37,907 nt of DNA from an uncultured Prevotella sp. (GCA_905235905.1 CAJONO010000074.1:1-37907), one strand, 5' to 3'. Numbered from the stretch's first letter, positions 16,098 through 34,410 are shown. The notes: generated from the letters alone by a model not told the origin. Numbers and translations are program-made.

Positions 16098-16216
16098 ATC
16101 TTAATGAGTCCTATCCCTGGCTCAGGGTAGTAGGTCACGCTGCAAAAGTACGAATAATTGCCGACATGCCCAAGCGATTGCAAAAGATTAACCAATTTTT
16201 TTACGTCTGTCAAACA

Positions 16217-16317
16217 GTTAGGCATTAACTCTGCCGGAGTTAGGCATTAACTCTGCCGGAGTTAGACATTAACTCTGCCGGAGTTAGGTATTAACTCTGC
16301 CGGAGTTAGGCATTAAC
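16217..16317. repeat. 22-bp tandem repeat, about 4.6 copies (GTTAGGCATTAACTCTGCCGGA)
   Basis: Units at 16217, 16239, 16261 (gttagaca), 16283 (gttaggta), partial at 16305. Single-base variants occur only in the GGCAT core. Confidence 0.95.
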
Positions 16318-16549: not shown

Positions 16550-18649
16550 ATGAAAACAATAACCAAACAGTGTTCTTTGCTATTACTGGCTACGTGCATG
16601 TGCCCGGTAATATCGTTAGCGCAGGAGCCAATTCTGCTGAACGGACAAGACGATGCCTACAGGCAGGCGTTCACTCCTCAGCTCCTGGCAAATTACCAGA
16701 ACAACACCATCTTTGCCGACGGCAAGAATGTGTGGAATCTTCGTGGGGGCAAGATGCTCTCTGTCAAGGGTGGCATCGGCGGTCTGGCCGTGAGTCCCGT
16801 TGGCGACCTCTATGCGGCCCATCGCCAGGGCGACAAGACGGTCGGCGTGTATAACCTATGGAAGAAGAGCAAGCGCGTGGGACAGGCCAAGATGACCGCC
16901 CCGGTGGCCTGCTACTGCTTCTCCTCTGACGGTTCGCGGCTCTTCGTGGTCGACGACCAAGGCAAGGCCGGCACGTTCCGCTGCACAGACTTCACCCTGA
17001 TGAACGCCCTGCAACTGCCCTCGGCTGCCACAAGCATAGTGGCTGCCGCCGATGGGCAAAGCCTGGCCGTCACCGACGGCAGTGCAGTGACAGTGGTGAG
17101 CGCTGCCGACGGCAGCGTCCTGACCACCCTGAGAAATGGCAACGCTGTCAAGGCAATGGCTTTCGCGGCCGACTCGAAAGACCTGGCCGTACTGTCGGCC
17201 GATGGTAGCCTGACTGTCTATGACACCCGCACCTGGCTGGCAAAGAAGCAGGTGAGTGCCCTGGGCGATGCCCGCGACTGCGCCTTCCACCCCAGCGGCA
17301 AGTATGTGGCCGTGGTCACTGGCGACAGCCGCATCTCGATTGTCAACCTGATTGACGACAGCGACCGAAAGTATGTGGACAGCGACGAGAGCGGCATCAG
17401 CGAGATTCTCTTTGCCAAGGACGACCGTGGTGGCATATACCTGGTCTACAACACCGCTGCGGCAGTACACTACAAGCAGGTGAACGAGCTTCCGCCTTAC
17501 TACTCGAAACTCTTGGAGGAAGAAGTCACGAAACTCATGGACGAGTGGGAGCTGCGCATGCCTGAAGAGACGATGGAGGCCTACCAGATACGTGTGAACG
17601 ACGAGACACGCGCCGCCCAGCTGCGACTGTTCGAGGAGGAGGTGGCCACCCGCATGGCCGAAGACCTGATGCGCACCGACGACATGCAGTTCACCTCGGC
17701 CGACAATATGCAGTTCAGCAGCTATAACCCCGAGACGGGCATGATGACGCTCGACTTCGAGCAGCTGCCACCCATCTATATCAATGTGCCGAAGGAAGAG
17801 GTGGGCTATTTTGCCAACTCGAACGACGTCGAGCTGCGCAACCCCATCTACGGCATTGGCGAGAACGACCAGTTCGAGCTGGTCTATGCCGACGTCTACA
17901 ACAAGAAGACGGGCAAGACCTACGTGTTCAACAACCGTGACCGCCAGTCGCTCGACTACATGGCCAACGACAACCGCTTCGTGCCGCTGGAATATGTGGC
18001 ACAGGGCAACGAGGAGCAGATGAAGCTCGACGAGCTGAAGAACAAGGTGGTGACCGATGCCAAGCAGCAGAACTCTATCTCCGACCACACGAAGATCAAT
18101 GTGAGCACGAAGACCATTTCGGACACCGGTGCCAACGGCGAGAAGGTGGTGGACTACCAGGTGAGCTTCGACTACCAGGTGGAGCAGGGCTTCACCGAGA
18201 AGGAAGACTTCGCCCCGGGCCGCTACGTGGCTGCACAGTCGGCTGCCGCCCGCACCATGCTCAGCATCATTGGCAAGGCCCTGCAGACCGACTTTGCCCA
18301 GTACATGAAGGAGGGCAAGGCCGTGGTAGTGAAGATTACGGGTTCGGCCGATGCCAGTCCCGTGAGGCGCGTCATTCCCTACAAGGGCGAGTATGGCGAC
18401 TTCGAGGAGGCCCCCGTGCGCTATAACGACGTCGACACGCTCATTACCGTGACCCGCAAGAGCGGCATCAGCTCGAACGAGCAGCTGGCCTTCCTGCGCG
18501 CCATGGGCATGAAGGACGGCATCGTGAAGAACGTTGAGCAGCTGACGAAGATGGATGCCCGCTACGACACGTTCATCGAGCAGGGCGAAGGCGTTGGCGG
18601 TGAGTTCCGCCGCATCCGCGTAGACTTCCTCTTCAAAAATGCGTTCTAA
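16550..18649 (+). CDS. Exported WD40-like beta-propeller protein with central domain shared with the next gene and an OmpA-like C-terminal region
   Basis: Signal peptide MKTITKQCSLLLLATCMCPVISLAQ; blade-like repeats (GGLAVSPVGDLYAA, AVACYCFSSDGSRLFVV, VKAMAFAADSKDLAVLSADGSLTVYDTRT, ARDCAFHPSGKYVAVVTGDSRISIVNL). Confidence 0.75.
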   Translation: MKTITKQCSLLLLATCMCPVISLAQEPILLNGQDDAYRQAFTPQLLANYQNNTIFADGKNVWNLRGGKMLSVKGGIGGLAVSPVGDLYAAHRQGDKTVGVYNLWKKSKRVGQAKMTAPVACYCFSSDGSRLFVVDDQGKAGTFRCTDFTLMNALQLPSAATSIVAAADGQSLAVTDGSAVTVVSAADGSVLTTLRNGNAVKAMAFAADSKDLAVLSADGSLTVYDTRTWLAKKQVSALGDARDCAFHPSGKYVAVVTGDSRISIVNLIDDSDRKYVDSDESGISEILFAKDDRGGIYLVYNTAAAVHYKQVNELPPYYSKLLEEEVTKLMDEWELRMPEETMEAYQIRVNDETRAAQLRLFEEEVATRMAEDLMRTDDMQFTSADNMQFSSYNPETGMMTLDFEQLPPIYINVPKEEVGYFANSNDVELRNPIYGIGENDQFELVYADVYNKKTGKTYVFNNRDRQSLDYMANDNRFVPLEYVAQGNEEQMKLDELKNKVVTDAKQQNSISDHTKINVSTKTISDTGANGEKVVDYQVSFDYQVEQGFTEKEDFAPGRYVAAQSAAARTMLSIIGKALQTDFAQYMKEGKAVVVKITGSADASPVRRVIPYKGEYGDFEEAPVRYNDVDTLITVTRKSGISSNEQLAFLRAMGMKDGIVKNVEQLTKMDARYDTFIEQGEGVGGEFRRIRVDFLFKNAF

Positions 18650-18661
18650 AGTGAAAAGCTT

Positions 18662-21226
18662 ATGCTAAGACGCTTATTATATATAATAATGTGGGCGGCT
18701 TGGATGGCGGGTCCGTGCCATGCGCAAAGCCTTCAGACAGGACTGCAGCAATACCAGCAGTTCCTGACCCTGAAGGACGGCGGCAACACGGGCAGTGCAT
18801 ACGCTATGCTGTGGCAGAGCTATCAGAACCTGGAGCAGGCGGCACGAAACGTCAGGGCGGGCACCGCAGAGTATGACCAGCTGCGGACGACGTTGCGCGA
18901 CATGCGGCAGCACTTGGAGCAGGGATGGCTCTACAACTCGCAGATGCGGCAGCGGTCGAACACGACACTCTTCGGCCAGGCCTATCTCGACATTGAGCGC
19001 ATGCCAATCATGGTGGGCATGGACATGGAGCACACCAGCAACTATCCTTCCATAGCCTATAACACGTCGGCTGCCACCTATAACCAGGCAGTGGGCTCGA
19101 AGAGCACCGCCGACTTCCAGAAGGCCATAGCCTATTTCAAGGCCTATCTGTCGACGGGCGAGACCACCCATCGGCGCAACGTGCTGCAGTTCATGTTCAA
19201 CGCCTGCCTGAAGGCCGGCGACAACGAGTCGGCACGCGACATTGTCGAGGAGATGGTGACCAACGACCCCCGCAACCTGAACCTGCTGCGCTATGCCGTC
19301 AACGTGTGCATGGAGTCGAAGGACTACCATGCCATGAAGCGCTATCTCGACCGCGCCATTGCCCTGAGTCCCAACGATGCCAGCCTGAAGAAACTGCAAG
19401 GTCAGGCATTGGAGGAAACCCAGCAGTATGAGCAGGCGTTAGAGGTGTTCGGCAAGTTGCGTCAGCAGAATCCGCGCAGCCTGGAGTTAGCCAAGCACAT
19501 AGGTCTCTGCAACTATAATCTGGGCGTGGCCTATCACAATGCAGCCCAGCAAGGCAGCAACGTGAAGCGCAACCAGAAAATGGCACGAGACTATTTTGCC
19601 GCTGCCGCCACCGACTTCGACGTGGTGGTGGGGCAGGAGAGCAACTCCCTGAAGTATGCCCAGGCACTGGCCACCAGCTACCTCTATTCCGACCAGACCG
19701 ACAAGCTGTCGGCTGCCAACCAGCGGGTGGTGGCGCTCGGCGGCATGGCCGTGACGAAGGACCAGCAGCCCGTGGCCATGACATCGGCAGGCAAGTCGGC
19801 ATCGGCCAGTTCGTTAGCCTCCTCGGCATCGGACGCCCGGCAGTCGGGTGCACAGCCGTCAGCATCGTCGTCCGACGAGCTTCCGCTCTATTCCGAGTTT
19901 GCCAAGCAGTTCGTCGAGGACAGGCTGCGCAAATGGCAGAAGAAAGACCCCTACGAGACCGCCGACGAGTATCGCAAGCGTGTCACCGAAGAGACCCGCA
20001 ACGCCAAGGCCAAGGAACTGCTGAGCCTGGCCGAGCAGGAGTATATCAGGACCTATACGCAGAACATACGCTTCGACCGCGAAATGAAGCTGCGCCCTTA
20101 CGACGCCGAGAACAGGGTGTTCCTCATCGAGTCGAAATATGGCGAGCTCATCGTGCCCGTGCCGCGTGAGAACAACGAGGCCCGCGCCTTCGAGACAGGA
20201 TGGAGCGGCATGCAGTTCAGCAATCCGCAGTTCTACATCTCCGGCGACAAGCTGACGCTCTCGAGCCTCACCTTCCGTACGCCGTCGGGCCGCACCTACC
20301 AGTTTGCGGGCGACAAGTCGCTCAACTACACCGAGACGGTGGTCGACGTGCAGTTCGACCAGTTAGACAACAGCCTCTTTGCCAGCAACGACCAGAAGCA
20401 GGGAAAGAGCAAGCGCAAGAAGCAGACGCTGACGGTGGGGCAGTCGGATGTCGACATGGACATTCCGCAGACTTCCAAGACCAACGACAACACCTTTGCC
20501 GTGATTATCTGCAACGAGCACTACAGCATGGTGTCGGAAGTGCCGATGGCCGAGAACGACGGTACCGTCTTTGCGCAGTACTGCCAGAAGACGCTGGGCC
20601 TGCCCAAGAACAACGTGCGACTCTACAAGGATGCCTCCTACGGCGTCATGCTGCGAGCCATGCGCGACATTGCCTCGATAGCGTCGGCCTACCAGGGCGA
20701 CCTGAACATCATCTTCTACTATGCCGGCCACGGCATTCCCAACGAGTCGACGAAGGATGCCTTCCTGCTGCCTGTCGATGCCGACGGTCTGCAGACCGAG
20801 GGCTGTTACCCCCTGAGCAAGCTCTATGGCGAGTTGGAGTCGCTCGGCGCCCGCAGTGTGGTGGTGTTTCTCGACGCCTGCTTCAGCGGAGCCAAGCGCG
20901 ACGGCGGCATGTTGGCCTCGGCACGAGGCGTGGCACTGAAGCCGAAGAAGGAAGGGCCGAAAGGCAATATGGTGGTGTTTACCGCCGCTACCGACGACGA
21001 GACGGCCATGCCCTACGAAGAGAAGAACCACGGACTCTTCACCTACTACCTGCTGAAGAAGCTAAAGGATAGCAAGGGCGACGTGACGCTGCAAGACTTG
21101 GGCAGCTATATCTCGACACAGGTGAAGCGGCAGTCGACGGTGGTCAATCATAAGCCGCAGACTCCCTCGGTCATGCCGTCGGCCTCGATGGTCAATGTGT
21201 GGAGCAACATGAAACTGATAAGATAA
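18662..21226 (+). CDS. Exported TPR-containing caspase-family (peptidase C14, clan CD) protease
   Basis: Signal peptide MLRRLLYIIMWAAWMAGPCHAQ; TPR-like helices; caspase His motif IIFYYAGHGIPNE and Cys motif VVVFLDACFSGAKR. Confidence 0.9.
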   Translation: MLRRLLYIIMWAAWMAGPCHAQSLQTGLQQYQQFLTLKDGGNTGSAYAMLWQSYQNLEQAARNVRAGTAEYDQLRTTLRDMRQHLEQGWLYNSQMRQRSNTTLFGQAYLDIERMPIMVGMDMEHTSNYPSIAYNTSAATYNQAVGSKSTADFQKAIAYFKAYLSTGETTHRRNVLQFMFNACLKAGDNESARDIVEEMVTNDPRNLNLLRYAVNVCMESKDYHAMKRYLDRAIALSPNDASLKKLQGQALEETQQYEQALEVFGKLRQQNPRSLELAKHIGLCNYNLGVAYHNAAQQGSNVKRNQKMARDYFAAAATDFDVVVGQESNSLKYAQALATSYLYSDQTDKLSAANQRVVALGGMAVTKDQQPVAMTSAGKSASASSLASSASDARQSGAQPSASSSDELPLYSEFAKQFVEDRLRKWQKKDPYETADEYRKRVTEETRNAKAKELLSLAEQEYIRTYTQNIRFDREMKLRPYDAENRVFLIESKYGELIVPVPRENNEARAFETGWSGMQFSNPQFYISGDKLTLSSLTFRTPSGRTYQFAGDKSLNYTETVVDVQFDQLDNSLFASNDQKQGKSKRKKQTLTVGQSDVDMDIPQTSKTNDNTFAVIICNEHYSMVSEVPMAENDGTVFAQYCQKTLGLPKNNVRLYKDASYGVMLRAMRDIASIASAYQGDLNIIFYYAGHGIPNESTKDAFLLPVDADGLQTEGCYPLSKLYGELESLGARSVVVFLDACFSGAKRDGGMLASARGVALKPKKEGPKGNMVVFTAATDDETAMPYEEKNHGLFTYYLLKKLKDSKGDVTLQDLGSYISTQVKRQSTVVNHKPQTPSVMPSASMVNVWSNMKLIR

Positions 21227-21253
21227 CAGGAACTAAAAATAACTTAAAGATAT

Positions 21254-22027
21254 ATGAACAAAACATTATTGCTAAGTATGGCACTGGCAGCCTGCAGCCA
21301 GTTTGTGGTAGCACAGACTATCATCAACGGCACGGTGACCGACACCAAGGGTGTGCCTATGCCTGGAGCCAGGGTACAAGTGAAAGGTACCAACGAGAGT
21401 GTGCTCACCAATATGGACGGCACCTTCTCTATCGTGACGCCGAAGGCTTCTTCCAAGCTTCAGGCCGAGTATGTGGGGTGGACAACAACCACCAAGACTG
21501 GTAAGGACGGAATGGTCATCAGGATGGGCAAGCAGAGCTGGTCGAAACCGGAGAAGTACCAGTGGTTTGTGGCCCTCAACGCAGCCTTCCCCTCCGACGA
21601 CCTGAAGAACTTCAACTTCTCGCCGGGCCTCATGCTGGGACGGGTGAAGAACTTCGGTTGGTATGTGAAAGGACAGTTCAACGGTACCGTCGACGATGTT
21701 GAGTATTACTCCGACTGGTACACGGGCAACGACAAGCGCAAGTACTGGAGCGTGTCGGGCGGCGGCATCGCCAGGGTGCTCGGACCGGTCTATCTCTATC
21801 TGGGTGGCGGCTATGCCGAGCGCAACGTCTACTGGGAGTTCCAGAGCGGCGACTACGAGAAGCACCGCGTCGACTGCTACGACGGATTCATGGGCGAAGT
21901 GGGCCTCATGGTGAGAATCAAGAGCTTCATGCTCTATGGCGGTGTGCAGAACACCTTCGACGAGTTCTGCTTCGACGAGATGGACCGTCATGTCGTGGGT
22001 AACTTTGGTATAGGTATTTACTTCTAA
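21254..22027 (+). CDS. Outer-membrane beta-barrel protein with N-terminal carboxypeptidase-regulatory-like domain
   Basis: Signal peptide; IINGTVTDTKGVPMPGARVQVKGTNESVLTNMDGTFSI; barrel-like alternating strands ending GNFGIGIYF. Confidence 0.8.
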   Translation: MNKTLLLSMALAACSQFVVAQTIINGTVTDTKGVPMPGARVQVKGTNESVLTNMDGTFSIVTPKASSKLQAEYVGWTTTTKTGKDGMVIRMGKQSWSKPEKYQWFVALNAAFPSDDLKNFNFSPGLMLGRVKNFGWYVKGQFNGTVDDVEYYSDWYTGNDKRKYWSVSGGGIARVLGPVYLYLGGGYAERNVYWEFQSGDYEKHRVDCYDGFMGEVGLMVRIKSFMLYGGVQNTFDEFCFDEMDRHVVGNFGIGIYF

Positions 22028-22041
22028 AAACGATGAGCATT

Positions 22042-23439
22042 ATGAAAAAGAAAGCATATTATCTATTTGCCCTGCTTGCAGGGATGGTATTCTTGCTTGC
22101 TTCGTGCGAGGAGCTGGATACTCCCTATAACACCGTGCCACGCCTGGACAAGGTAACCGTTACGCCGAGCAAGACAGAGCTGAAATACACGCTCTACCAC
22201 GAAAACAAAAATGCCAACAGTGGCTACTACGAGATTTCGCAATATGCCGACATGCGCGACGCCGAGCGGGTAAATAGTTCCCACTATAATGGCTACTGGA
22301 GTGCCGAGGTAGACTTGCTGCCCTCGACGACCTATTACATCCGACTGGTACTGTCAAACAACAACAGCTCGGTGGCAGGACCCGTCACGGAGTACACCAC
22401 GCCGGAAATATCGAGAACGGTGAGCGTCAGCCAAGTCACCACTAACAGTGCCCGTTTTGCCATCTCTTGGAATCGCACGGACTGTCTGGTGTTCTTCCAG
22501 TATTCCACCAGCGAAGACCTAAGCGGTGCCAAGACGAAGCAGGCAACGCCCTACAATAGCAGCTATGTGCTCTATTTGGACGGTCTTCAGAACTATACTA
22601 CCTACTACGTCCGCGCCGCCATACAGCTGCCTGACGGAAATTACTACTATACGCCAGTGACGAAGTTCACGACGACAAGGCCCGTTACCATCAGTACGTC
22701 AGACAGCAGCGTGAGTGGCAGCACCCGTTACTGGATAGTGGGCGAAGACTATACCACCAGCGGCAGCGCTACTGGCAATTCGTGGAATATCAATGCCTCC
22801 GGGTCTTCGACCATCTATGTCTTCAAGCCCTATAAGAGTGCCAACGACTACAAGGCTGTTCCCATTTACTACAACGAATATGAAGTGTTCGAGTGGGGCT
22901 ATGGCAAGATCGACCCGTCAAGCTCTCAATCCGTTTCCTGCAAGATGAACAAATGGCTGGCTTACAGTGTGACGCTGAACATCAGCATCAAGTCGGCCAA
23001 CGGAGCCACCTCGTCGAAGTCTATCAGTCAGGTGGAGATTGCCAATGCCGGCACGGCACAGGCCATCAGCACCGATGCCACCTTCGACGTGAGCACTGGC
23101 AACATAACGCCTGTGAAGAACAACGCTGCCAAGTGGACGGCCAAACCCAACATTCCGCTAACCTACACGAACGCATATCCCGTCAGCTTCAGGTCGCTCA
23201 TTCCCATCAAGTTCAACGACGGTGAGGTGAAGGTGAACATTGTGCTGAACAACCCGACCAATATGACCACCGAGGTCTATCCCGCCACATTACCCGCAAG
23301 CGACTGGAAGCAAGGCCAGCCTTACCCTTACAACATCACCTTGACCTATACCCGTACCGATGTAGAGGTGACCGTTGGCGACGTGACCGTCACACCGTGG
23401 AAGGAAGGCGACAACAATGACATTGATATTTACGACTAA
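22042..23439 (+). CDS. Lipoprotein with FnIII-like repeats and fimbrillin-like C-terminal region
   Basis: Lipobox FLLASC; FnIII-like LLPSTTYYIRLVLSNNNS...EYTTPE and LQNYTTYYVRAAIQLPDG...KFTTT; C-terminal YPYNITLTYTRTDVEVTVGDVTVTPW. Confidence 0.7.
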   Translation: MKKKAYYLFALLAGMVFLLASCEELDTPYNTVPRLDKVTVTPSKTELKYTLYHENKNANSGYYEISQYADMRDAERVNSSHYNGYWSAEVDLLPSTTYYIRLVLSNNNSSVAGPVTEYTTPEISRTVSVSQVTTNSARFAISWNRTDCLVFFQYSTSEDLSGAKTKQATPYNSSYVLYLDGLQNYTTYYVRAAIQLPDGNYYYTPVTKFTTTRPVTISTSDSSVSGSTRYWIVGEDYTTSGSATGNSWNINASGSSTIYVFKPYKSANDYKAVPIYYNEYEVFEWGYGKIDPSSSQSVSCKMNKWLAYSVTLNISIKSANGATSSKSISQVEIANAGTAQAISTDATFDVSTGNITPVKNNAAKWTAKPNIPLTYTNAYPVSFRSLIPIKFNDGEVKVNIVLNNPTNMTTEVYPATLPASDWKQGQPYPYNITLTYTRTDVEVTVGDVTVTPWKEGDNNDIDIYD

Positions 23440-23454
23440 ACGAACAGAAACGAT

Positions 23455-24969
23455 ATGAAAAAAGCAATATTATCACTTCTTGCCCTCCCACTGCTGTTTG
23501 CTTGCAGCAGTGAGGACAGCGAGATAGCAGGCAATGCAGGGCGAGTGCCCCTGCAAATAGAGTTTGGCGACATCACCCGCGCTGCACTTGAAGGCAGCAC
23601 ACTGCCCGACAACGCACAGTATGGCGTGTTCGCCGCAAGCACCACCGCTCCCTACAACAGTCTGCTGGAGAACGGAGAGAACCGCCGTGTGACATATTCA
23701 GGAGGCAAAAGCACCTTCGACCAGAACGTCTATATTCCTGAGGGCAAAACGGCATACGTGTGGGCCTACTATCCCTACAATTCCTTGATGAGCCGCACCG
23801 TGCTGTCAGATGGGTGGACTATCGATGCCCAGAGCCAGACAGACTATCTGCTGAGCAATTCCTACCAGACGGCTACCGAGAGCTCGCCCACCGTGAGGCT
23901 GTCGATGCGCCACCTCATGTCGCGCATACACATCACGGTGAAGAAAGCTGCCGACAACACGACAAACTATGAATATAAGGAAGCCAATCTCTATAATGCC
24001 TATCGCTATGGCAGGTTCTTTTTCACCAACACGTCGATGACGTTAGACAACAAGACCACCATAACACTGCATGGCTATATGACCAATGGCGACTCAAGCC
24101 TGCAGGACGGCAAGACCATAGAGTTCGACTTCCTCGTGCTGCCTACCACCAACACTCACGTCATGACTGTGGAGCTGCCCAACGGCTCTTCTGTGCTGAG
24201 CACGTCATTGCCCGAACGCAGGTATGTGGCCGGCGAGCAGTATAACATCACGCTGACCATTAACCACCTGGGAGAGCTGACCGCAGGCGAGTGGACCATC
24301 GTGCCCTGGCAAACCTCGACGAAAAGCGGCCTGAATGTCTGGAAGGACGACCAGACGGGGGAGGAAGAAGTGACACCGACACCCACAGAAGAGCATGAAT
24401 ACGTTGACCTCGGCCTGCCCAGCGGAACATTATGGGCCACCTGCAACATTGGAGCCAAAGTGCCAGAGGAAGCAGGTAATCGATATGCATGGGGAGAAAC
24501 AGAGGTGAAAGAAAGCTATTCGGAGGCTAATTACAAATGGATGGATGGCTACTATTACACCAAGTATAATTCTATAGAAACCAATGGAGTACTTGACAAT
24601 TTGACTGAGCTGGAACTATCTGATGATGCAGCTTACGTTAACTGGGGTAAGAGCTGGCAAATGCCTACAAACGGCAATGTGGAAGAACTTGTAAAACATT
24701 GTACAAAAGAACTGGTATATATCGGCGATGCCTTTGGATGTAGAATAACTGGACCTAATGGCAAGTCTATTTTCTTGCCCACAGATCCTCGTAGCAACAA
24801 CAGCATGGTAGGTCAGTATTGGACAAGTTCAAAACCAACTCATAATTATGCATACGTAATATATTTCAGCGAAAAATATCCACTCAATAGTAGTGGAACG
24901 TCTACAGGAAGATTCCAGGGCCTTTTGGTCAGACCAGTTATCAGAGGTGTTGTAATAACCAACAACTAA
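23455..24969 (+). CDS. Fimbrillin-family lipoprotein with C-terminal FISUMP-like domain
   Basis: Lipobox LLFAC; ITRAALEGS...YVWAYYPY...RHLMSRIHITV...YNITLTINHLGELTAGEWTIVPW; C-terminal HEYVDLGLPSGTLWATCNIGA. Confidence 0.85.
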   Translation: MKKAILSLLALPLLFACSSEDSEIAGNAGRVPLQIEFGDITRAALEGSTLPDNAQYGVFAASTTAPYNSLLENGENRRVTYSGGKSTFDQNVYIPEGKTAYVWAYYPYNSLMSRTVLSDGWTIDAQSQTDYLLSNSYQTATESSPTVRLSMRHLMSRIHITVKKAADNTTNYEYKEANLYNAYRYGRFFFTNTSMTLDNKTTITLHGYMTNGDSSLQDGKTIEFDFLVLPTTNTHVMTVELPNGSSVLSTSLPERRYVAGEQYNITLTINHLGELTAGEWTIVPWQTSTKSGLNVWKDDQTGEEEVTPTPTEEHEYVDLGLPSGTLWATCNIGAKVPEEAGNRYAWGETEVKESYSEANYKWMDGYYYTKYNSIETNGVLDNLTELELSDDAAYVNWGKSWQMPTNGNVEELVKHCTKELVYIGDAFGCRITGPNGKSIFLPTDPRSNNSMVGQYWTSSKPTHNYAYVIYFSEKYPLNSSGTSTGRFQGLLVRPVIRGVVITNN

Positions 24970-24999
24970 GCATCCTCTCCATATTTTAACATAACGACT

Positions 25000-25983
25000 A
25001 TGAAGATGAAAAGATATACAATCATGATGTCCTTGGCAACGGTGTTGCTGGGACTGGTGTCGTGCTCCCAGGACGAGAGCGTCGACAATATGACGGGGAC
25101 AGCCGACCTGCGGCTGAGCACGGAGATTGCCACTACCCGCGCCATCATTGAGGGCACCGCCTTCAGCAGCGGCGACAGGGTGGAGCTGTTCGTCAACAAT
25201 ACCATCGGCGCAAACACTGTCAGTGCCATCTGCGATGACGGCAAGTGGATTATCGACCCCGCCGTGAAGCTCAACAACCTGAGCATGGGCGTGGTAGGCA
25301 TTGCCAATCGCCCTGCCTTTAGCATTGCCCCCGACTCTGCCGGCAACCAGCAGGACATTCTCATCGGCCTGCCCGACAAGATTGCCAACGGCACCAGCAT
25401 CAATGCTGCCAACCCGGAGGTTCACATGACGTTCCACCATGCCCTGGCCCGCCTGTCGTTCCAGTTTACCGAGACCAACGGCAGCGACAATCTGACGCGC
25501 CTCTCGCTGGTCAACGTCAATGGCAAAGCCATCAAGACGCAGTGCGACAGCAGCTTGCTATCGAACGCCGCCTGGCAGCTGGCTTACGATATGGCAAAGA
25601 ACCGTAACTACTCTGCCATGTGGACGATGTGCCAGAGCAGCATCCTGGCCTATCTGAGCGAGTATGGAAAAGCCGAAACGATGACGCTCAACAAGACCGT
25701 CACGCTCTCGGAGAAAGAGCAGGTGGTCGACCTCCTGGTCTTCCCCACCACCATCAACTCGAGCAACCGCGTGAGCCTCGAACTGGTCGTCAGCGGCAAG
25801 GTCTACAAGGTGGAAATGCCCGCCGACACGTGGTCGGCCAACGTGCGCTACGTCTATCCCGTCAGCATCGACGTGACGAAGGACTACGAGCAGAGCGTCA
25901 CCATCGGCAAAGCCACCATCGAGAAGTGGGGCGCACAGAAGTCGCTCGACGAGATTACGGTGCCCACCACCATGGACTACTAA
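25000..25983 (+). CDS. Fimbrillin-family lipoprotein
   Basis: Lipobox GLVSC; TTRAIIEGTAFSSGDRVELFV; FHHALARLSFQF; ends VTIGKATIEKWG. Confidence 0.85.
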   Translation: MKMKRYTIMMSLATVLLGLVSCSQDESVDNMTGTADLRLSTEIATTRAIIEGTAFSSGDRVELFVNNTIGANTVSAICDDGKWIIDPAVKLNNLSMGVVGIANRPAFSIAPDSAGNQQDILIGLPDKIANGTSINAANPEVHMTFHHALARLSFQFTETNGSDNLTRLSLVNVNGKAIKTQCDSSLLSNAAWQLAYDMAKNRNYSAMWTMCQSSILAYLSEYGKAETMTLNKTVTLSEKEQVVDLLVFPTTINSSNRVSLELVVSGKVYKVEMPADTWSANVRYVYPVSIDVTKDYEQSVTIGKATIEKWGAQKSLDEITVPTTMDY

Positions 25984-26048
25984 TGGCCGTGGCAAGACAC
26001 TCGAAGCATTTCACTTATTCTTGACAAACTAAAAAACATAGAATAGCA

Positions 26049-27299
26049 ATGAAAAAACTGAATATATTCCTTACGCTGATGGCTGCCGGCCTGATGGCTG
26101 CCTGTAGCAACGATATGGAGATAGACGGCCTGACGGCAGGCGAGCCAGTGAAACTGAGCGTGAGAGCCGAGATGCCCACCACACGTGCGGCCATCGACGA
26201 CACACAGTTCAGCAAGAGCGACCGCGTGGGTCTCTATCTGAGCGGATACCAGCAGTACCAGAACGTGCCTGCCACCTGGCAGAGCAGCACCACGCTGACC
26301 CCCGAACAGGACATCATGCTCACCTCGCAGAAGACCACCGTCCGCGCCTACTATCCCTATCAGGAGCTGCGCGACGGCCAGTGGTTCGACATCGATGTGG
26401 AGAAGCAGCAGAACATACTCTATGGCGAGAGCACCGCCGAGGTATGGAACAAGAACCCGCAGGCCACCCTGCAGTTCCGTCATCTCATGGCCCGTGTGCG
26501 CTTCAACATCACCTATAAGCAGGGCTTCAACCTGGAGAAGATGCAGCTCACGGGCGTTGTCAGAAGCTACGGTATCGACGTGGCCTCTGCCGGAGAAAAG
26601 TTCTCCATAGAACCGGCCACGGCCGAGAAGCCGCTCGTCATCACCGCTGCCGCCGGCAAGACGGGGAAGACCATCGGCCAGGACGTGCTGCTCATACCGA
26701 TGGGAAAGAGCGAGGGCGTCGTGCTGCAGCTCACCTACAGCAACGGCAAGGTGTTCGACATTCCCCTGAACCTGCCTGAACTCAAGGCCAACGACTACTA
26801 CACCTATCCCATCACCATCAAGGAAGACCCCTACAACGGCCACGAATACGTAGACCTCGGTCTGCCCAGCGGACTGCTGTGGGCCACCTGCAACCTCGGT
26901 GCCACCAACGAGAGCGACTACGGCCTCTATCTGGCCTGGAACGCTACCGATGCCGCCAAGGAGGCATGGAAGGGCGTGTGGCGCATGCCAACGTCGACCG
27001 ACGTGCAGGAGCTGCTTACCAACTGCAAGTGGGAGTGGGCCGAAACGGGCTGCCGCGTCACCAGCAAGAAGAATGGCAACAGCATCTTCCTGCCTGCCGC
27101 CGGCATGAAGAGCGATGAGGGAGCGCTGATGCGCAACGGCACCTACGGCTACTACCTCACCACCGACCAGGATGAAGGCTTCGTCTTCGAGATGCAGTTC
27201 AACGAAGAGCCGTGGGGCAGGCCCTCACACTTCCTGGGCAGCGTACCCGCTGGCTACCAGTGCAGTGTGCGCCCCGTAGCCCCCAAGACGGCCAACTGA
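26049..27299 (+). CDS. Fimbrillin-family lipoprotein with C-terminal FISUMP-like domain
   Basis: Lipobox LMAAC; TTRAAIDDTQFSKSDRVGLYLSG; RHLMARVRFNITY; C-terminal HEYVDLGLPSGLLWATCNLGA. Confidence 0.87.
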   Translation: MKKLNIFLTLMAAGLMAACSNDMEIDGLTAGEPVKLSVRAEMPTTRAAIDDTQFSKSDRVGLYLSGYQQYQNVPATWQSSTTLTPEQDIMLTSQKTTVRAYYPYQELRDGQWFDIDVEKQQNILYGESTAEVWNKNPQATLQFRHLMARVRFNITYKQGFNLEKMQLTGVVRSYGIDVASAGEKFSIEPATAEKPLVITAAAGKTGKTIGQDVLLIPMGKSEGVVLQLTYSNGKVFDIPLNLPELKANDYYTYPITIKEDPYNGHEYVDLGLPSGLLWATCNLGATNESDYGLYLAWNATDAAKEAWKGVWRMPTSTDVQELLTNCKWEWAETGCRVTSKKNGNSIFLPAAGMKSDEGALMRNGTYGYYLTTDQDEGFVFEMQFNEEPWGRPSHFLGSVPAGYQCSVRPVAPKTAN

Positions 27300-27635: not shown

Positions 27636-28235
27636 ATGAATATACGCAAACTACTATCCTTTAAAGATTGGTTCTCCTATCGTCAAAAGATAGGCCTGTT
27701 GGTTGTGGCTGGCGTTGTATGTGGGCTTGGCGGATTGTTTATGTATCTGCTGCGGGCGCATACCTATTTTGTAGGCGACAATCCATCGGCCTGCGTCAAC
27801 TGTCACATCATGACACCTTATTATGCCACGTGGAGCCACTCAAGTCATGGAAGGGATGCCACGTGTAATGATTGTCATGTGCCGCATCAGAACCTGGGCT
27901 TCTATTATGGCTTCAAGGCGGTGGACGGACTGAAACATACGGCTTATTTTGTGACACACTCGGAGCGACAAGCGCCAATGGCTGAAGCATTGACAGGACA
28001 GGTGGTGATGGACAACTGTATTCGCTGCCACACTCAACTGAACCAGGAGTTTGTAAAGACAGGACGTATGGGCTACATGCAGCAACAGGCTCAGGGAGGT
28101 AAGGTGTGCTGGGACTGTCATCGCAACGTGCCGCATGGTGGTATGAACTCACTGATGGCGACACCGAATGCCGAGGGCGTAACGCCTCTGCCGCCATCGC
28201 CCGTTCCAGATTGGCTACAGGGAATGCTGAAATAG
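27636..28235 (+). CDS. nrfH: Cytochrome c nitrite reductase small subunit NrfH
   Basis: N-terminal TM helix and four CxxCH motifs (CVNCH, CNDCH, CIRCH, CWDCH), followed by nrfA. Confidence 0.95.
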   Translation: MNIRKLLSFKDWFSYRQKIGLLVVAGVVCGLGGLFMYLLRAHTYFVGDNPSACVNCHIMTPYYATWSHSSHGRDATCNDCHVPHQNLGFYYGFKAVDGLKHTAYFVTHSERQAPMAEALTGQVVMDNCIRCHTQLNQEFVKTGRMGYMQQQAQGGKVCWDCHRNVPHGGMNSLMATPNAEGVTPLPPSPVPDWLQGMLK

Positions 28236-28271
28236 TCAAATTGTAAAATCGTAAAATAGTCAAATAAATCT

Positions 28272-29804
28272 ATGGCAAAGACATTAAAGAAATGGCAAGG
28301 TTGGGCACTCTTTTTAGGCTCAATGGTTGTGGTATTCCTTTTGGGACTGCTCGTCTCATCGTTGATGGAGCGCCGTGCCGAGGTGGCCAGTGTGTTCAAC
28401 AACAAGCGCACTGTGTTTGAAGACAGTATCGTGGCCCAGAACGAGAAGTTCAAAGCCGACTATCCGCGTGAATACGAGACGTGGGCAAAGACCGAGGACA
28501 CCTCGTTCGAGTCGAAGTACAACGGTTCTGAGGAAGTTGACGTGCTTGAACAGCGTCCAGAGATGGTAGTACTGTGGGCTGGCTATGCCTTCTCGCGTCA
28601 CTATAACACGCCTCGCGGACATAAGCATGCTCTGGAGGATATGCGCAAGATTCTGCGCACGGGCAATCCGGGTATCGATGGCGACGGCGATATGCAGCCT
28701 GCTACATGCTGGACGTGTAAGGGGCCTGATGTGCCTCGTATGATGCGCGAGTTGAGCGCCTCGAAGTCGGTGATGGATCCCGCCAACTTCTATGCCAAGA
28801 AGTGGAGTGAGCTGGGTGCCGAAGAGATGAACACCATCGGCTGCAGCGACTGTCACGATGCTACGACGATGGACTTGCGCCCTGCCCGTCCTGCGCTCTA
28901 TGAGGCTTGGGCTCGCGTAGGCAAGGATGTCCGCAAAGCCACCCATCAGGAGATGCGTTCACTGGTATGTGCACAGTGCCATACGGAGTACTATTTTATC
29001 AAGCCCGACGACCCCGACAATCCCGGCAAAGCCAACTATCTGATGTTCCCGCAGGACAAAGGTTTGACCTGCGAGGCTGCTGAAGAATACTTTGACTCTA
29101 TTGGTTTCTATGACTATATCCATCCACTATCGAAGACACCGATTCTAAAGGCTCAGCATCCAGGCTACGAGATTGCTTTGCAGGGAATTCATGGACAGCG
29201 TGGCGTGAGTTGTGCCGACTGCCACATGCCTTACAAGCAGGAGGGTGGCGTGAAGTACAGCGACCACCAGATCATGTCACCGCTGGCCAAAATCGACCGC
29301 ACCTGCCAGACCTGTCACCGTCAGGATGCCGAGACCCTGCGCCAGAACGTCTATGAGCGTCAGGACAAGTGTACGGAGATTCGCAACCGTGCAGAGAAGG
29401 AACTGGCACGCGCCCACTTCGAGACCAAGTTCATCATCGACAAGGGTGCTACCGAGGCTGAACTGAAGCCCATCCAGGCCCTGTTGCGCAAGAGTCAGTG
29501 GCGTTGGGACTACTCCATTGCCTCGCACGGAGCCACCTTCCATGCACCGCAGGAGGTTATCCGTCTGCTTGCAGCATCTATCGACTATGCCAAGGAGGCC
29601 CGTATCCTGATTGCCCGCACAGTAGCCAAGTATGGACACACCGGCGAGATTCCCGTGCCCGACTACTCTACGAAGGCTAAGGCTCAGCAGGCCATCGGTC
29701 TCGACATGCAGAAGTTGAACGAGAAGAAGCAGCGTTTCCTCGACGAGATCGTTCCCAAGTGGATTGACGAGGCCAAGAAGAACGGTAAGTTGATAGAAAT
29801 ATAG
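28272..29804 (+). CDS. nrfA: Ammonia-forming cytochrome c nitrite reductase NrfA
   Basis: CWTCK active-site haem motif plus CSDCH, CAQCH, CADCH, CQTCH. Confidence 0.97.
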   Translation: MAKTLKKWQGWALFLGSMVVVFLLGLLVSSLMERRAEVASVFNNKRTVFEDSIVAQNEKFKADYPREYETWAKTEDTSFESKYNGSEEVDVLEQRPEMVVLWAGYAFSRHYNTPRGHKHALEDMRKILRTGNPGIDGDGDMQPATCWTCKGPDVPRMMRELSASKSVMDPANFYAKKWSELGAEEMNTIGCSDCHDATTMDLRPARPALYEAWARVGKDVRKATHQEMRSLVCAQCHTEYYFIKPDDPDNPGKANYLMFPQDKGLTCEAAEEYFDSIGFYDYIHPLSKTPILKAQHPGYEIALQGIHGQRGVSCADCHMPYKQEGGVKYSDHQIMSPLAKIDRTCQTCHRQDAETLRQNVYERQDKCTEIRNRAEKELARAHFETKFIIDKGATEAELKPIQALLRKSQWRWDYSIASHGATFHAPQEVIRLLAASIDYAKEARILIARTVAKYGHTGEIPVPDYSTKAKAQQAIGLDMQKLNEKKQRFLDEIVPKWIDEAKKNGKLIEI

Positions 29805-29834
29805 AAATATAAAACAACAAACTGGTTTTTCCCA

Positions 29835-29900
29835 TACCTACAATTGATTATTGGTTGCACAACGAGGCACGTCCCAATAATCGGTTGTAGGTATTTTTTT
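29835..29900 (+). terminator. Rho-independent-like terminator after nrfA
   Basis: tacctacaattgattattgg / ccaataatcggttgtaggta inverted repeat followed by a T-tract. Confidence 0.75.
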
Positions 29901-29953
29901 TGTTTGCGATTGCCTGAAATGGCTCAAAATGGGCCTTTTCATTATTTTTAGGT

Positions 29954-29985
29954 ATTGTCTGAACGCCCTAATATCCGTACTTTTG
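29954..29985 (+). promoter_or_regulatory. Promoter upstream of porin gene (ATTG-N20-TACTTTTG)
   Basis: ATTG 29954-29957 and TACTTTTG 29978-29985. Confidence 0.5.
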
Positions 29986-30012
29986 CAGCCGTTTTTAAAG
30001 AAAAAAGTTCAG

Positions 30013-31356
30013 ATGAATGGTTTTCAGTTGTTATTAAAGGTGTGTAGGTCGGCAAAAGGTCTGTCGGCTCTTTTCCTGTTCACTCTCATATCGTTAGGCG
30101 CAACGGCTCAGGAGAGCATTGCCGACAGCGTGATGAATCAAGTTACAGACAACCGTCTCAGTGTGGGTGGCTACGGCGAGGCGGCCTTTTCGCGTAACTT
30201 CTATAGTGACAACCAGTACCGCTACCGCAATCCTGCAAAGTATAAGAACGACCCAAGCAACGGGCGCTTCGACATTCCTCACGCCGTCATCTACTTAGGC
30301 TATGACTTCGGCAAGGGATGGACGATGGGTACAGAAATAGAATTTGAACATACAGGCACCGGCTCGGCCATCGAGATTGAGACCGACGAAGGCGGTGAGT
30401 ATGAACACGAGATAGAGAAAGGTGGCGAGGTGGAGCTGGAACAGTTCTGGCTGCAGAAGCAGTTCTCAAAGGCAGCGAACCTGCGTATTGGACATATCAT
30501 CGTGCCAGTAGGCTTGAACAACGCCCATCACGAGCCGTTGAACTTCTTTACGGTCTACCGTCCGGAAGGTGAGAATACCATTCTCCCCTCAACCTGGCAT
30601 GACACGGGCATATCCTTTTGGGGCAAGGCAGGCAAGTTGCGCTACGAACTGCTGATGGTTGCCGGACTCAATGCGCTGCAATACAGCCGCGACAACTGGA
30701 TTCAGGGAGGCAATAAGTCGGCCTACGAGTTCAAGCCCGCCAATAAATATGGTTTTGCAGCGCGGCTCGATTACTATCCCATGCTGGGGCTGCGCGTAGG
30801 GTTGAGCGGATACTACGGGCAAGGCATGCACAATACGTCGCCCAATGAAATGGAGGGCGAAGGCAAGACCTACGACCAGGTGAAGGCCAGCACCTTCGTG
30901 GGATCTGTCGACATGACGCTGAGACGCTGGAACTGGATTGTGCGCGGACAGGCAGATTACGGATATGTATCAGACACACCGCTGCTGAATCAGGCGAAAA
31001 TCAATCAGCGCGGCACGTCGCCTTATAACAAGACATACGTGGGCAAGAACGCCTACACCATAGGCATTGAGGCGGGCTACAACGTCTTTTCGCAAATTGA
31101 GAGCCTTTGCCATGACCACCAGAAGTTGTATATCTTCGGACGCTACGAGCAATACGATTCCTATCTGCCTGAGAGTACGCAACCCAAGGCTACCAATGAT
31201 TATACGAAGCGCACGAACATCACCTTCGGACTGAATTATTTTCCTGTTCCGCAGATTGCCATCAAGGCCGACTATTCGCTGCGCAAGTTGAAGGAGCCGT
31301 GCAACAACGAGCCGAGCCTGAACATCGGCATCGCCTACGAGGGATTCTTCTTGTAA
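30013..31356 (+). CDS. Outer-membrane porin-like beta-barrel protein
   Basis: Signal peptide (GLSALFLFTLISLGATAQ); GYGEAAFSRNF..., GKGWTMGTEIEFEH, repeated amphipathic strands, terminal aromatic GIAYEGFFL. Confidence 0.78.
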   Translation: MNGFQLLLKVCRSAKGLSALFLFTLISLGATAQESIADSVMNQVTDNRLSVGGYGEAAFSRNFYSDNQYRYRNPAKYKNDPSNGRFDIPHAVIYLGYDFGKGWTMGTEIEFEHTGTGSAIEIETDEGGEYEHEIEKGGEVELEQFWLQKQFSKAANLRIGHIIVPVGLNNAHHEPLNFFTVYRPEGENTILPSTWHDTGISFWGKAGKLRYELLMVAGLNALQYSRDNWIQGGNKSAYEFKPANKYGFAARLDYYPMLGLRVGLSGYYGQGMHNTSPNEMEGEGKTYDQVKASTFVGSVDMTLRRWNWIVRGQADYGYVSDTPLLNQAKINQRGTSPYNKTYVGKNAYTIGIEAGYNVFSQIESLCHDHQKLYIFGRYEQYDSYLPESTQPKATNDYTKRTNITFGLNYFPVPQIAIKADYSLRKLKEPCNNEPSLNIGIAYEGFFL

Positions 31357-31379
31357 AAAATAAAAAAAATAAAAAACGC

Positions 31380-32675
31380 ATGAAAAAGATTTTTCAGTTC
31401 GCCATGCTCTTCGCAGCTGGCATGATGACCATGGGCATGACGGCATGCTCGAGTGATGACAACGACAACAACAACGCTGACGTTGCCAAAGAACAGAACG
31501 AGGCTATTGCAAGCCTGACGGCAAAGTATCTCAACGACGTGGTCTATCCCACCTATGGCAGCCTTGCCAGCGAAAGTGAGAGCCTCTTCAATAAAATCAG
31601 TGCCCTGAAAGTCAAGTTGAAGGCTGGTACAACGGTCAGTCAGAGCGAGATCGACGCCATCTGCACGTCGTACAAGACCGCCCGCAAGTACTGGGAGCAG
31701 AGCGAAGCCTTCCTCTATGGTGCTGCCTCCGACTTCGAGATCGATCCGCACATTGACACATGGCCCCTTGACGTACCTACTCTTGGTGAGGACCTGACCG
31801 ACGATGCCAAGATTGCGCGTCTCGATGCAGCCGACGGCATTGAGTATGCCCGTACGAGCCTCACCGCCGAGAACCTTGGCTTCCACGGCATTGAGTTCAT
31901 TTTCTTCCGCGACGGTGTCAATCGCTCGGCAGCCTTCTTCAACAATAATGAGAAAGAGACCGACAGCGACATTACGGCCAAAGGCGACGTGACGGGCAAG
32001 GAAGAGGTGATCTTCGCCACAGCTGTTGCCGGCGACCTGCGCGACAAGTGCTTCCAGCTCGAAGTGGCGTGGAACCCCAATGCCAACAGTGCCCATAAGA
32101 GCCGTGTGGCCGAATGTGCCAAGACCTCGGCCGACTTCGAGACCAAGGTCGTCAAGAACGGCTTGACTTACGGCGAGAACCTCACGGCCGTGAATGCAGG
32201 CAACAGCACCTATAATTCCTGGAAGAAGGTGATGGAGGAAATCCTTGTCGGCGGCTGCTCGAACATCTGTGCCGAGGTGGCCGACCAGAAGATGGGCCAG
32301 GCCTATCGTGCCGCTACGGGAACCGGCGATGCCGAGGACGATCCCAACTACATCGAGTCGCCCTACAGCCACAACTCGTTTACCGACTTCCGCGACAATA
32401 TCATGAGCATCCAGAACGCTCTTTACGGTAATGTGGAAGGCTCGGCTGTCGCTAACAGCTCCGTGATGGCCTATCTGCAGAAGTATAATGCTGCCGAGGC
32501 AGCCGCACTCCAGTCAAAGCTCACGGTCGCACTCAATGCCCTGCAGGCTTGTCTGAACAGCGGGAAGTCGTTCGTAGAGGCTCCAGGAGCTACCTGTGTG
32601 AAGACTGCCATGGATGCCATTGGGAATCTTGACGATGAGTTGAACACAGCTGCCAGCTGGATCCTGAAGAATTGA
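31380..32675 (+). CDS. Imelysin-family lipoprotein (peptidase M75-like, iron-regulated)
   Basis: Lipobox MTAC followed by an acidic stretch; imelysin-like LGFHGIEFIFFRDG (GxHxxE) and TARKYWEQSEAFLYG. Confidence 0.88.
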   Translation: MKKIFQFAMLFAAGMMTMGMTACSSDDNDNNNADVAKEQNEAIASLTAKYLNDVVYPTYGSLASESESLFNKISALKVKLKAGTTVSQSEIDAICTSYKTARKYWEQSEAFLYGAASDFEIDPHIDTWPLDVPTLGEDLTDDAKIARLDAADGIEYARTSLTAENLGFHGIEFIFFRDGVNRSAAFFNNNEKETDSDITAKGDVTGKEEVIFATAVAGDLRDKCFQLEVAWNPNANSAHKSRVAECAKTSADFETKVVKNGLTYGENLTAVNAGNSTYNSWKKVMEEILVGGCSNICAEVADQKMGQAYRAATGTGDAEDDPNYIESPYSHNSFTDFRDNIMSIQNALYGNVEGSAVANSSVMAYLQKYNAAEAAALQSKLTVALNALQACLNSGKSFVEAPGATCVKTAMDAIGNLDDELNTAASWILKN

Positions 32676-32697
32676 AGGATTGAAGAATTGAAGGATT

Positions 32698-34410
32698 ATG
32701 AACAGAATACCAACAAGACAGCTCCTTGCCGCTTTTAGCGTGTGTTGCGGTTTAGCCGCAACAGTAGTATCCTGCTCCGACAGCGACGACTCGCAGCCCG
32801 CCAGCGTGGCCATCAGTACCACGGGCGAAGACGACTATACGTTCGTGGGTAGGGAAACAGCCGGCTTCAAGGCTGAAGAATGGTTCCCCGGCGGCGAGCT
32901 GGGCACCACGACAAACACGGTGGCAGGCTGCTACGAGGACGAGACGCCCGCAACCGAGAATGCCGACCTGCTGGCCGCCTTCAAGCGCGGCGAACTGCTC
33001 TTCGAGCACGACTTTACGCCCACCAGTACCGCCAGCTTCGGCGGACTGGGGCCTGCTTACGTTCGCTCCTCCTGTATTCACTGCCATCCGGGCTACGGCC
33101 ACGGCAAACGCGTCGAGACGTACAACGCCGACCAGCGCGGCAACGGCTATCTGCTGGTCATCTACCATCCTGCCGACGGTGCCAATAGTGACGACGGCCC
33201 CTACATATCCGAAGTCACGGGCATGCCGCAGACACGCGCCGTCTCGCCCTTCCTGCCGCCTGTCGACGAAAGTGGCATACACCTGGCCTGGCTGCCCGTT
33301 ACGGCAATGGAGAGCGGTCTGCCCATGCAGTTTCCCGACGGTGAGACCTACGAGCTCATCTATCCCGAGCTGAGCATCGACATCGATGCCTTCAACACCG
33401 ACCCCAAGCCCTCGAACCTGGCTTTTCGCCTCGAATCGACCATTGGCATCATAGGTTCAGGACTGCTCGATGCCATCCCCGAGGATTCTATCAAGGCACA
33501 ATATCAGCGTGAGGCGCCCTACGTCGAGTTGAATCCTAATTTCTGGGACAAGGATGCCAACGACTGGGCTGCCGGTGCCTGGTACACGCTGGCCGACGGC
33601 ACCAAGAAGATTAAGCGCTTCACATACGCCATGACCCGTGCCTCTCTGCAGGACGGTGCCGGAGCCAACGCCATGTGGAACATCCCCAACGTTTCGCGTA
33701 GCGACCGTCCTTATCTCTACACTACCACCGCATGGGCTCAGGCCATGTCGAAAAACCCCGACGTCATTGCCGCCATCAAGAAGGATCCGTCGTCACCTTA
33801 TTATAACGACGGCACCGACGAGGGCATAGCCGAGGCCGTGGCCGCCCTGTTAGACCCCAAGACTAACCAGTTCGACAATCCCTATCACAATTTCCAGCCG
33901 GAGATGACCGATAACAATTTCTGGTCGTTCATGGTGTGGCATCGCGGACTGGCCATTCCTCGTGCCCGCGACCTCAACGACAAGCAGGTGCAGCGTGGCA
34001 AGCTGGTGTTCAATGAGATTGGCTGTGCCTCTTGCCACCGTGCGAAGTGGACTACGGGCAGCGACGACTACTGGGCACCGTCGCCCATCGTCAGCAACAA
34101 CCTCAGTCTGCCCCGCTATCCAAACCAGACAATCTACCCCTATACCGACATGATTCACCACCGCCTGTATATGAAGAACGGCATACACGGCTCCTGGTGT
34201 CGCACCACACCGCTGTGGGGCAGGGGACTCTCGCGTATCAACACCGGTGCCGAAGACCGTCTGCACGACTGTCGTGCCCGCAACGAGATTGAGGCTATCA
34301 TGTGGCATGCCTACTCGAAAAAGAGTGATGCCTATAAATCGACGGAACGCTTCTTCTATCTCTCGAAGGAAGACCGCGATGCCGTTGTGAAGTTCCTGCA
34401 GAGCATATAA
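32698..34410 (+). CDS. Di-haem oxidoreductase (DUF1111-type) lipoprotein
   Basis: Lipobox VVSC; CIHCH and CASCH haem motifs; C-terminal MHHRLYMKNGIHGSWCRTTPLWGRGLSRINTGAEDRLHDCRARNEIEAIMWH-type segment. Confidence 0.88.
   Translation: MNRIPTRQLLAAFSVCCGLAATVVSCSDSDDSQPASVAISTTGEDDYTFVGRETAGFKAEEWFPGGELGTTTNTVAGCYEDETPATENADLLAAFKRGELLFEHDFTPTSTASFGGLGPAYVRSSCIHCHPGYGHGKRVETYNADQRGNGYLLVIYHPADGANSDDGPYISEVTGMPQTRAVSPFLPPVDESGIHLAWLPVTAMESGLPMQFPDGETYELIYPELSIDIDAFNTDPKPSNLAFRLESTIGIIGSGLLDAIPEDSIKAQYQREAPYVELNPNFWDKDANDWAAGAWYTLADGTKKIKRFTYAMTRASLQDGAGANAMWNIPNVSRSDRPYLYTTTAWAQAMSKNPDVIAAIKKDPSSPYYNDGTDEGIAEAVAALLDPKTNQFDNPYHNFQPEMTDNNFWSFMVWHRGLAIPRARDLNDKQVQRGKLVFNEIGCASCHRAKWTTGSDDYWAPSPIVSNNLSLPRYPNQTIYPYTDMIHHRLYMKNGIHGSWCRTTPLWGRGLSRINTGAEDRLHDCRARNEIEAIMWHAYSKKSDAYKSTERFFYLSKEDRDAVVKFLQSI

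Follow-up and report, generated by a model that had tools for sequence, protein, structure and literature searches.

A protease encoded together with several candidate substrates raises the question of whether it is dedicated to them. Such a case is found in a 37,907-nucleotide stretch of DNA from an uncultured Prevotella sp. (hereafter, the window), in which the gene of an exported caspase lies upstream of three fimbrillin-type lipoprotein genes. A sequence-only reading of this DNA had proposed that the caspase matures the co-encoded fimbrillins by cleavage at a Thr-Arg-Ala (TR-A) motif. The literature searched names no pilin-maturation protease for Bacteroidota without gingipains, and the operon offers a concrete test case for pilin maturation, with a C11 lipoprotein as the rival candidate.

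Organization of the operon

Seven co-directional ORFs were found on the plus strand between positions 16550 and 27299, separated by intergenic gaps of 12, 27, 5, 15, 30 and 65 bp, and their Pfam domains agreed with the close-set gene series originally described.

16216..16317, no strand: 22-bp direct repeat, 4.6 copies, intergenic, 5′ of the operon
16550..18649, plus strand: scaffold/partner protein, 699 aa (Pfam, AF2, Foldseek, linker homology)
18662..21226, plus strand: exported TPR-caspase, 854 aa (Pfam, alignment)
21254..22027, plus strand: CarboxypepD_reg-like domain and small outer-membrane beta-barrel-type protein, 257 aa
22033..23439, plus strand: lipoprotein, FN3-like N-terminus and fimbrillin-like C-terminus, TR-A site absent
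23455..24969, plus strand: FIM1, Mfa_like_1 fimbrillin lipoprotein, C-terminal Lcl_C domain, ITR-A site at Arg42
25000..25983, plus strand: FIM2, Mfa_like_1 fimbrillin lipoprotein, ending after the fimbrillin domain, TTR-A site at Arg47
26049..27299, plus strand: FIM3, Mfa_like_1 fimbrillin lipoprotein, C-terminal Lcl_C-type domain, TTR-A site at Arg46

The identical seven-gene order was observed in two Prevotellaceae MAGs from the rumen, RUG10775 (locus L001) and RUG11543 (locus L002), with protein identities of 39–62%, thereby indicating a true operon rather than a chance arrangement. All three Mfa_like_1 genes detected in the genome, a 3.2-Mb draft assembly that is 82% complete and has the window on contig C74, sit in this operon. 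No Bacteroides-type promoter was matched in a search of the region 5′ of the operon. The unit of the 22-bp repeat located there is AGTTAGGCATTAACTCTGCCGG, and arrays or single copies like it occur on contigs C193, C89 and C212 as well. On the 3′ side, a 336-bp spacer separates FIM3 from a NapC/NirT-type cytochrome gene, and the region 27636–34410 encodes nrfH/nrfA-type cytochromes, a porin, an imelysin and a di-haem oxidoreductase, all in a single direction. Arrays of the heptamer CTCTCAC at 36269–36342 (10.6 copies) and 35540–35571 (4.6 copies) lie inside a ResB/CcsA-type cytochrome c assembly gene (35125–36636), where in-frame translation gives SHLSPLT repeats. Adding or removing one unit of such an array would shift the frame, so this gene is possibly phase-variable.

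The exported caspase and its predicted specificity

The caspase protein consists of a signal peptide, a TPR region (approximately residues 130–290), a linker domain shared with the partner protein (404–562) and a C14 domain (595–854), in which PF00656 was matched at residues 612–837 (E=1.5e-22; 80.9 bits against a Pfam cut-off of 21.4). The catalytic residues are His690 (YYAGHG) and Cys740 (FLDACFSG), and both motifs are intact, as the sequence-only reading had stated. Alignment of 14 caspase orthologues showed that the His motif (YYAGHG or YYSGHG) and DAC are invariant, as are the Asp at position −2 relative to the Cys and a second Asp, which belongs to an AxNDG motif close to where the caspase domain begins; in the alignment, the L051 caspase (L051_9) has DAC at the active site. 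Searched against PDB sequences, the profile of the caspase domain matched MALT1 best (E 1e-5); the −2 Asp was aligned there with the DMC motif, and the Asp of NDG with an Asp around helix 1. Both aligned positions are S1 acids in MALT1 and TbMCA2 (PMC4357240). With Asp633 and Asp738 as the predicted S1 acids, a basic (Arg/Lys) P1 preference, previously suggested from the −2 Asp, is a fair prediction from the alignment. Since these acids are equally present in orthologues without fimbrillin neighbours, such a preference would not be an adaptation to fimbrillins. In an AF2 model built from three sequences, much of the caspase domain had pLDDT values under 50; the prediction of the S1 acids does not draw on this model.

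The Pfam scan matched neither Por_Secre_tail nor any other C-terminal sorting domain of the type IX secretion system (T9SS) in the caspase. The caspase and its partner both have Sec-type signal peptides and lack both a lipobox and a T9SS tail, which would place the two proteins in the periplasm.

The caspase is paired with a WD40–OmpA-like protein

The partner protein comprises a signal peptide, a WD40 beta-propeller (approximately residues 70–300), a linker domain (310–470) and an OmpA-like C-terminal domain (500–699). Its earlier description as a WD40 protein holds for the propeller, which is supported by AF2 and by Foldseek (WD40 and other propellers only, among the matches listed), and is extended by the C-terminal domain. 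This domain contains the motifs NxxLxxxRA and RR, with strands and helices in the order b-a-b-a-b-b in the AF2 model; PF00691 matched below threshold in five of 14 members of the partner family (best E 0.0021), the window member being unmatched, and a PDB sequence search with the C-terminal profile returned nothing credible.

Pairs of partner and caspase were identified at 20 loci, which belong to six or more families of the order. The partner gene was upstream of the caspase gene, and the linker domain and C-terminal half of the partner were present, at all 20. The linker domain, for which AF2 predicts a helical hairpin and a beta domain and which had zero Pfam matches in the window scan, was common to partner and caspase protein at 18 of the loci (exceptions, L145 and L146; BLAST E ~1e-7). 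In the branch that includes L059, an outer-membrane (OM) barrel (PF13505, E=4e-7) replaces the WD40 propeller at the N-terminus of the partner. Moreover, natural fusions of an OmpA-like domain to a C14 caspase occur at L085:3216-5507, L148:3549-5750 and L149:2823-4079; these distant relatives span three families of the order and provide independent support for joint action of the domain and the caspase.

Usual neighbours of the pair

At least one of three genes lay near the pair at 18 of the 20 loci, encoding a DUF4384 protein of approximately 290 aa, a protein of approximately 220 aa (P220) or a transglutaminase-like (TGase) protein of approximately 500–630 aa. All three have signal-peptide-like N-termini, and the TGase-type neighbour shows a conserved CDCED...GH...CDPTY pattern with weak transglutaminase-like matches. 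The window locus is without these neighbours, and relatives of all three are encoded on other contigs of its genome. On contig C93 of this genome (L066:5938-8643), a DUF4384 gene comes after two caspase genes that lie side by side.

Several further arrangements were observed around envelope caspases. A large exported family with a CDCED(R)S...GHLA.AV...CDPTY-type pattern adjoins them at L054:2653-4137, L057:6843-8750, L002:16718-18352 and other places, and the family is probably a transglutaminase-like Cys-His-Asp enzyme. Tandem lipoproteins of approximately 460 aa and two small OM proteins are encoded upstream of the caspase at L068:1654-7252 and L086:5820-8589; one of these lipoproteins has a weak BACON match, and they form another exchangeable lipoprotein set. 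At L084:11174-15172, a 1332-aa protein with approximately eight FN3 domains lies between the caspase/barrel genes and the P220, DUF4384 and TGase genes.

The barrel and the fimbrillin lipoproteins

Orthologues of the small barrel protein are encoded directly 3′ of the caspase in L001, L002 and L050–L053. FIM1, FIM2 and FIM3 each have a lipobox and matched Mfa_like_1 (PF13149) with E=3.3e-26, 1.1e-15 and 2e-22 (93.2, 58.8 and 80.8 bits, respectively, against 27). The TR-A motif, reported for all three after the first strand of the mature protein, was recovered approximately 25 residues past the lipobox Cys (R42, ITRA; R47, TTRA; R46, TTRA). The first lipoprotein had been described as an FnIII lipoprotein, which is correct for its FN3-like N-terminus and incomplete for its C-terminal half, which is fimbrillin-like: the protein itself had zero profile matches, and the L002 orthologue matched Mfa_like_1 (E=4e-10), which brings the fimbrillin-like lipoproteins of the operon to four. 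It is possibly an anchor-type subunit; no Mfa2/FimB-type anchor was identified by profile. An extra C-terminal domain of the Lcl_C type follows the fimbrillin domain in FIM1 (by Pfam) and FIM3 (by alignment), where it would be expected to stand in the way of a free C-terminal donor strand, and FIM2 stops after the fimbrillin domain. The fimbrillins carry acidic residues after the lipoprotein Cys, and such residues fit surface export in Bacteroidota.

Fimbrillins are linked to the caspase in one clade

Neighbourhoods were read within at most 20 kb of each pair, the contig of L059 being too short to judge, and Mfa-domain neighbours were found at five of the 20 pair loci, namely the window, L001, L002, L050 and L051. 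Neighbourhoods in which the pair rarely occurs with fimbrillins had been named in the sequence-only reading as evidence against it, and this is largely what was found. In L050, the fimbrillin domains are contained within one long protein and the TR site is absent. FN3/Lcl_C lipoproteins occupy the equivalent position in L052 and L053, with no Mfa domain by Pfam, and one of those in L052 bears a SATRS motif; the other pair loci have neither fimbrillins nor FN3/Lcl_C lipoproteins. When 35 caspases were placed in a tree, those linked to fimbrillins fell within a single nested group of eight members (SH-aLRT 96), with two label changes. Comparison over hundreds of genomes indicates that the protease module came first and that the pilus genes joined it later.

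At the genome level, Mfa_like_1 was detected in 147, C14 in 68 and both in 49 of 201 genomes of the family, and C14 was undetected in 98 of the 147 fimbrillin genomes. The odds ratio was 0.92 (Fisher p=0.87, which is only indicative because related genomes are not independent), and fimbrillins and C14 caspases thus showed no sign of association.

The TR-A motif and candidate processing proteases

Thirty Mfa_like_1 proteins taken from the top of a family-wide search were screened by pattern for a motif with Arg or Lys at the corresponding position, which was present in at least 29; this number is a lower bound, as the one protein missed by the pattern, in L092, does contain FKRATDYAF. The motif was likewise found in at least 20 of the 21 fimbrillins from genomes without a detected C14 caspase, bearing out the caution in the sequence-only reading that it is common where caspases are absent. 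The Pfam profile match of FIM1, like that of FIM3, starts at the TR-A motif. By this sequence comparison, the TR motif belongs to the fimbrillin family as a whole.

Other proteases were sought in the window genome. The sole C25 enzyme found was PorU, so no gingipain was found to account for TR-A processing. One C11 peptidase gene was present, and its product has a lipobox (LAIGC) followed by GKDHD. C11 was found in 141 of the 147 fimbrillin-positive and 49 of the 54 fimbrillin-negative genomes. Fragipain is a clostripain (C11)-type enzyme. In B. fragilis, it cuts Arg-Ala sites of exported proteins (PMC8406203). That these fimbrillins are cut at TR-A by the C11 lipoprotein or another general surface protease is no less likely than that the caspase cuts them.

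Discussion

In our view, the locus represents a conserved caspase module of the cell envelope, with clade-specific surface lipoproteins appended downstream, and not a dedicated pilus-processing enzyme (probability, roughly 0.55). This interpretation is based on the pairing of partner and caspase at 20 loci, the OmpA–caspase fusions, the core neighbours at 18 of the 20 loci, the S1 and catalytic residues that are invariant with or without fimbrillins, the replacement of the propeller by an OM barrel in the L059 branch, the confinement of fimbrillin linkage to one nested clade, the null genome-level association and the family-wide occurrence of the TR motif. Against it count the OmpA-like assignment, which is weak and below the Pfam cut-off, the lack of DUF4384, P220 and TGase genes at the window locus, and the poor AF2 model of the caspase. 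In such a module, the periplasmic caspase and partner would be joined through their common linker domains, and the OmpA-like domain of the partner would anchor them to peptidoglycan. The WD40 and TPR parts, or the N-terminal OM barrel in one branch, may sense or recruit clients, which the caspase would cleave after Arg or Lys. The small barrel could link the complex with surface lipoproteins, which vary from lineage to lineage. The barrel and the lipoproteins (in this operon Mfa fimbrillins, in its relatives FN3/Lcl_C proteins) would represent the exterior or the cargo of the module. The DUF4384, P220 and TGase relatives on other contigs are assumed to act in trans with the window pair.

The dedicated maturase of the sequence-only reading, in which a cut at TR-A clears the groove for the donor strand so that type V pili can assemble, appears unlikely. 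The operon is kept in three genomes, it holds the only Mfa_like_1 genes found in the window genome, an Arg/Lys P1 pocket is predicted, no gingipain-type C25 enzyme other than PorU was found, and Rgp matures fimbrillins in P. gingivalis (PMC5954841). However, fimbrillins of C14-free genomes have the same motif, co-occurrence with C14 is null, 15 of the 20 pair loci are without Mfa neighbours, L050 lacks the TR site, the caspase lacks a T9SS tail, and the extra end domain of FIM1 and FIM3 should obstruct a C-terminal donor strand. A claim that is bolder still, and which we regard as more doubtful, is that an ancestral periplasmic caspase machine, comprising an OmpA-like scaffold with DUF4384 and TGase partners, was coupled to type V fimbrillins in one Prevotellaceae clade, such that an envelope-anchored caspase, not a gingipain, controls pilus maturation or display; lineage-specific co-option of the caspase for fimbrillin maturation is possible, but is not the parsimonious reading. 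Maturation at TR-A by the C11 lipoprotein, with the caspase doing something else, is a substantial possibility and is compatible with an envelope caspase module. The single lipobox-bearing C11 gene, the presence of C11 in nearly all fimbrillin-positive genomes and the cleavage of Arg-Ala sites by fragipain argue for it, whereas the near-universal, and hence unspecific, distribution of C11 in the family and the six fimbrillin-positive assemblies without a C11 match argue against it.

The fimbrillin genes might also be mere passengers, inserted behind the envelope caspase pair and having only the promoter in common with it. Linkage confined to one clade and a lipoprotein content that varies among close relatives are consistent with insertion, but the order is kept in three genomes at 39–62% protein identity and related loci retain an FN3/Lcl_C-type lipoprotein at the equivalent place, which suggests selection for linkage; we find this somewhat doubtful, although less so than dedicated maturation. 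Many bacterial caspases act as immune effectors, and the caspase matched the PADLOC 'caspase' model (E 1.9e-7, 28.7 bits). This match is weak and generic and spans approximately one-third of the model, the caspase and partner are predicted to be exported, and other defence genes were absent among the genes scanned; an anti-phage or abortive-infection function is very improbable, and this identity was rejected.

Bacterial caspases are discussed mostly as cytoplasmic or cell-death factors. No description of an exported module made up of the scaffold–caspase pair, its DUF4384, approximately 220-aa and TGase partners, and the OmpA–caspase fusions was found in the literature searched. If the caspase is periplasmic and conserved, a new question would arise concerning processing or surveillance in the envelope.

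The closest known enzymes are the prokaryotic metacaspases/orthocaspases (MEROPS C14B), which share the p20 His-Cys dyad, DAC, association with TPR and WD40 domains and a predicted basic P1 preference. Genes for OmpA domains have been counted in 14 metacaspase operons (PMC3501461). The module differs in that its caspase is exported, has a separate WD40–OmpA-like partner with a common linker and is accompanied by DUF4384, P220 and TGase neighbours. The MALT1 paracaspase has the −2 Asp and the aligned helix-1 Asp in its Arg-binding S1 pocket (PMC4357240), but is a eukaryotic, cytoplasmic protein with an Ig/death-domain architecture. Gingipains work at the cell surface. In pilin maturation by gingipain R (C25) of P. 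gingivalis, a clan CD protease likewise meets fimbrillins that are lipoproteins and have an Arg site following their first strand; gingipain R, however, belongs to another peptidase family, is secreted by the T9SS and has its substrates encoded elsewhere. Fragipain and the C11 clostripains are also clan CD enzymes, but represent a gene and family separate from the module caspase. Finally, FIM1–FIM3 resemble the subunits of type V pili (Mfa_like_1, PF13149) in their above-cut-off matches, lipobox and TR site, and differ from them in the C-terminal Lcl_C-type domains carried by FIM1 and FIM3.
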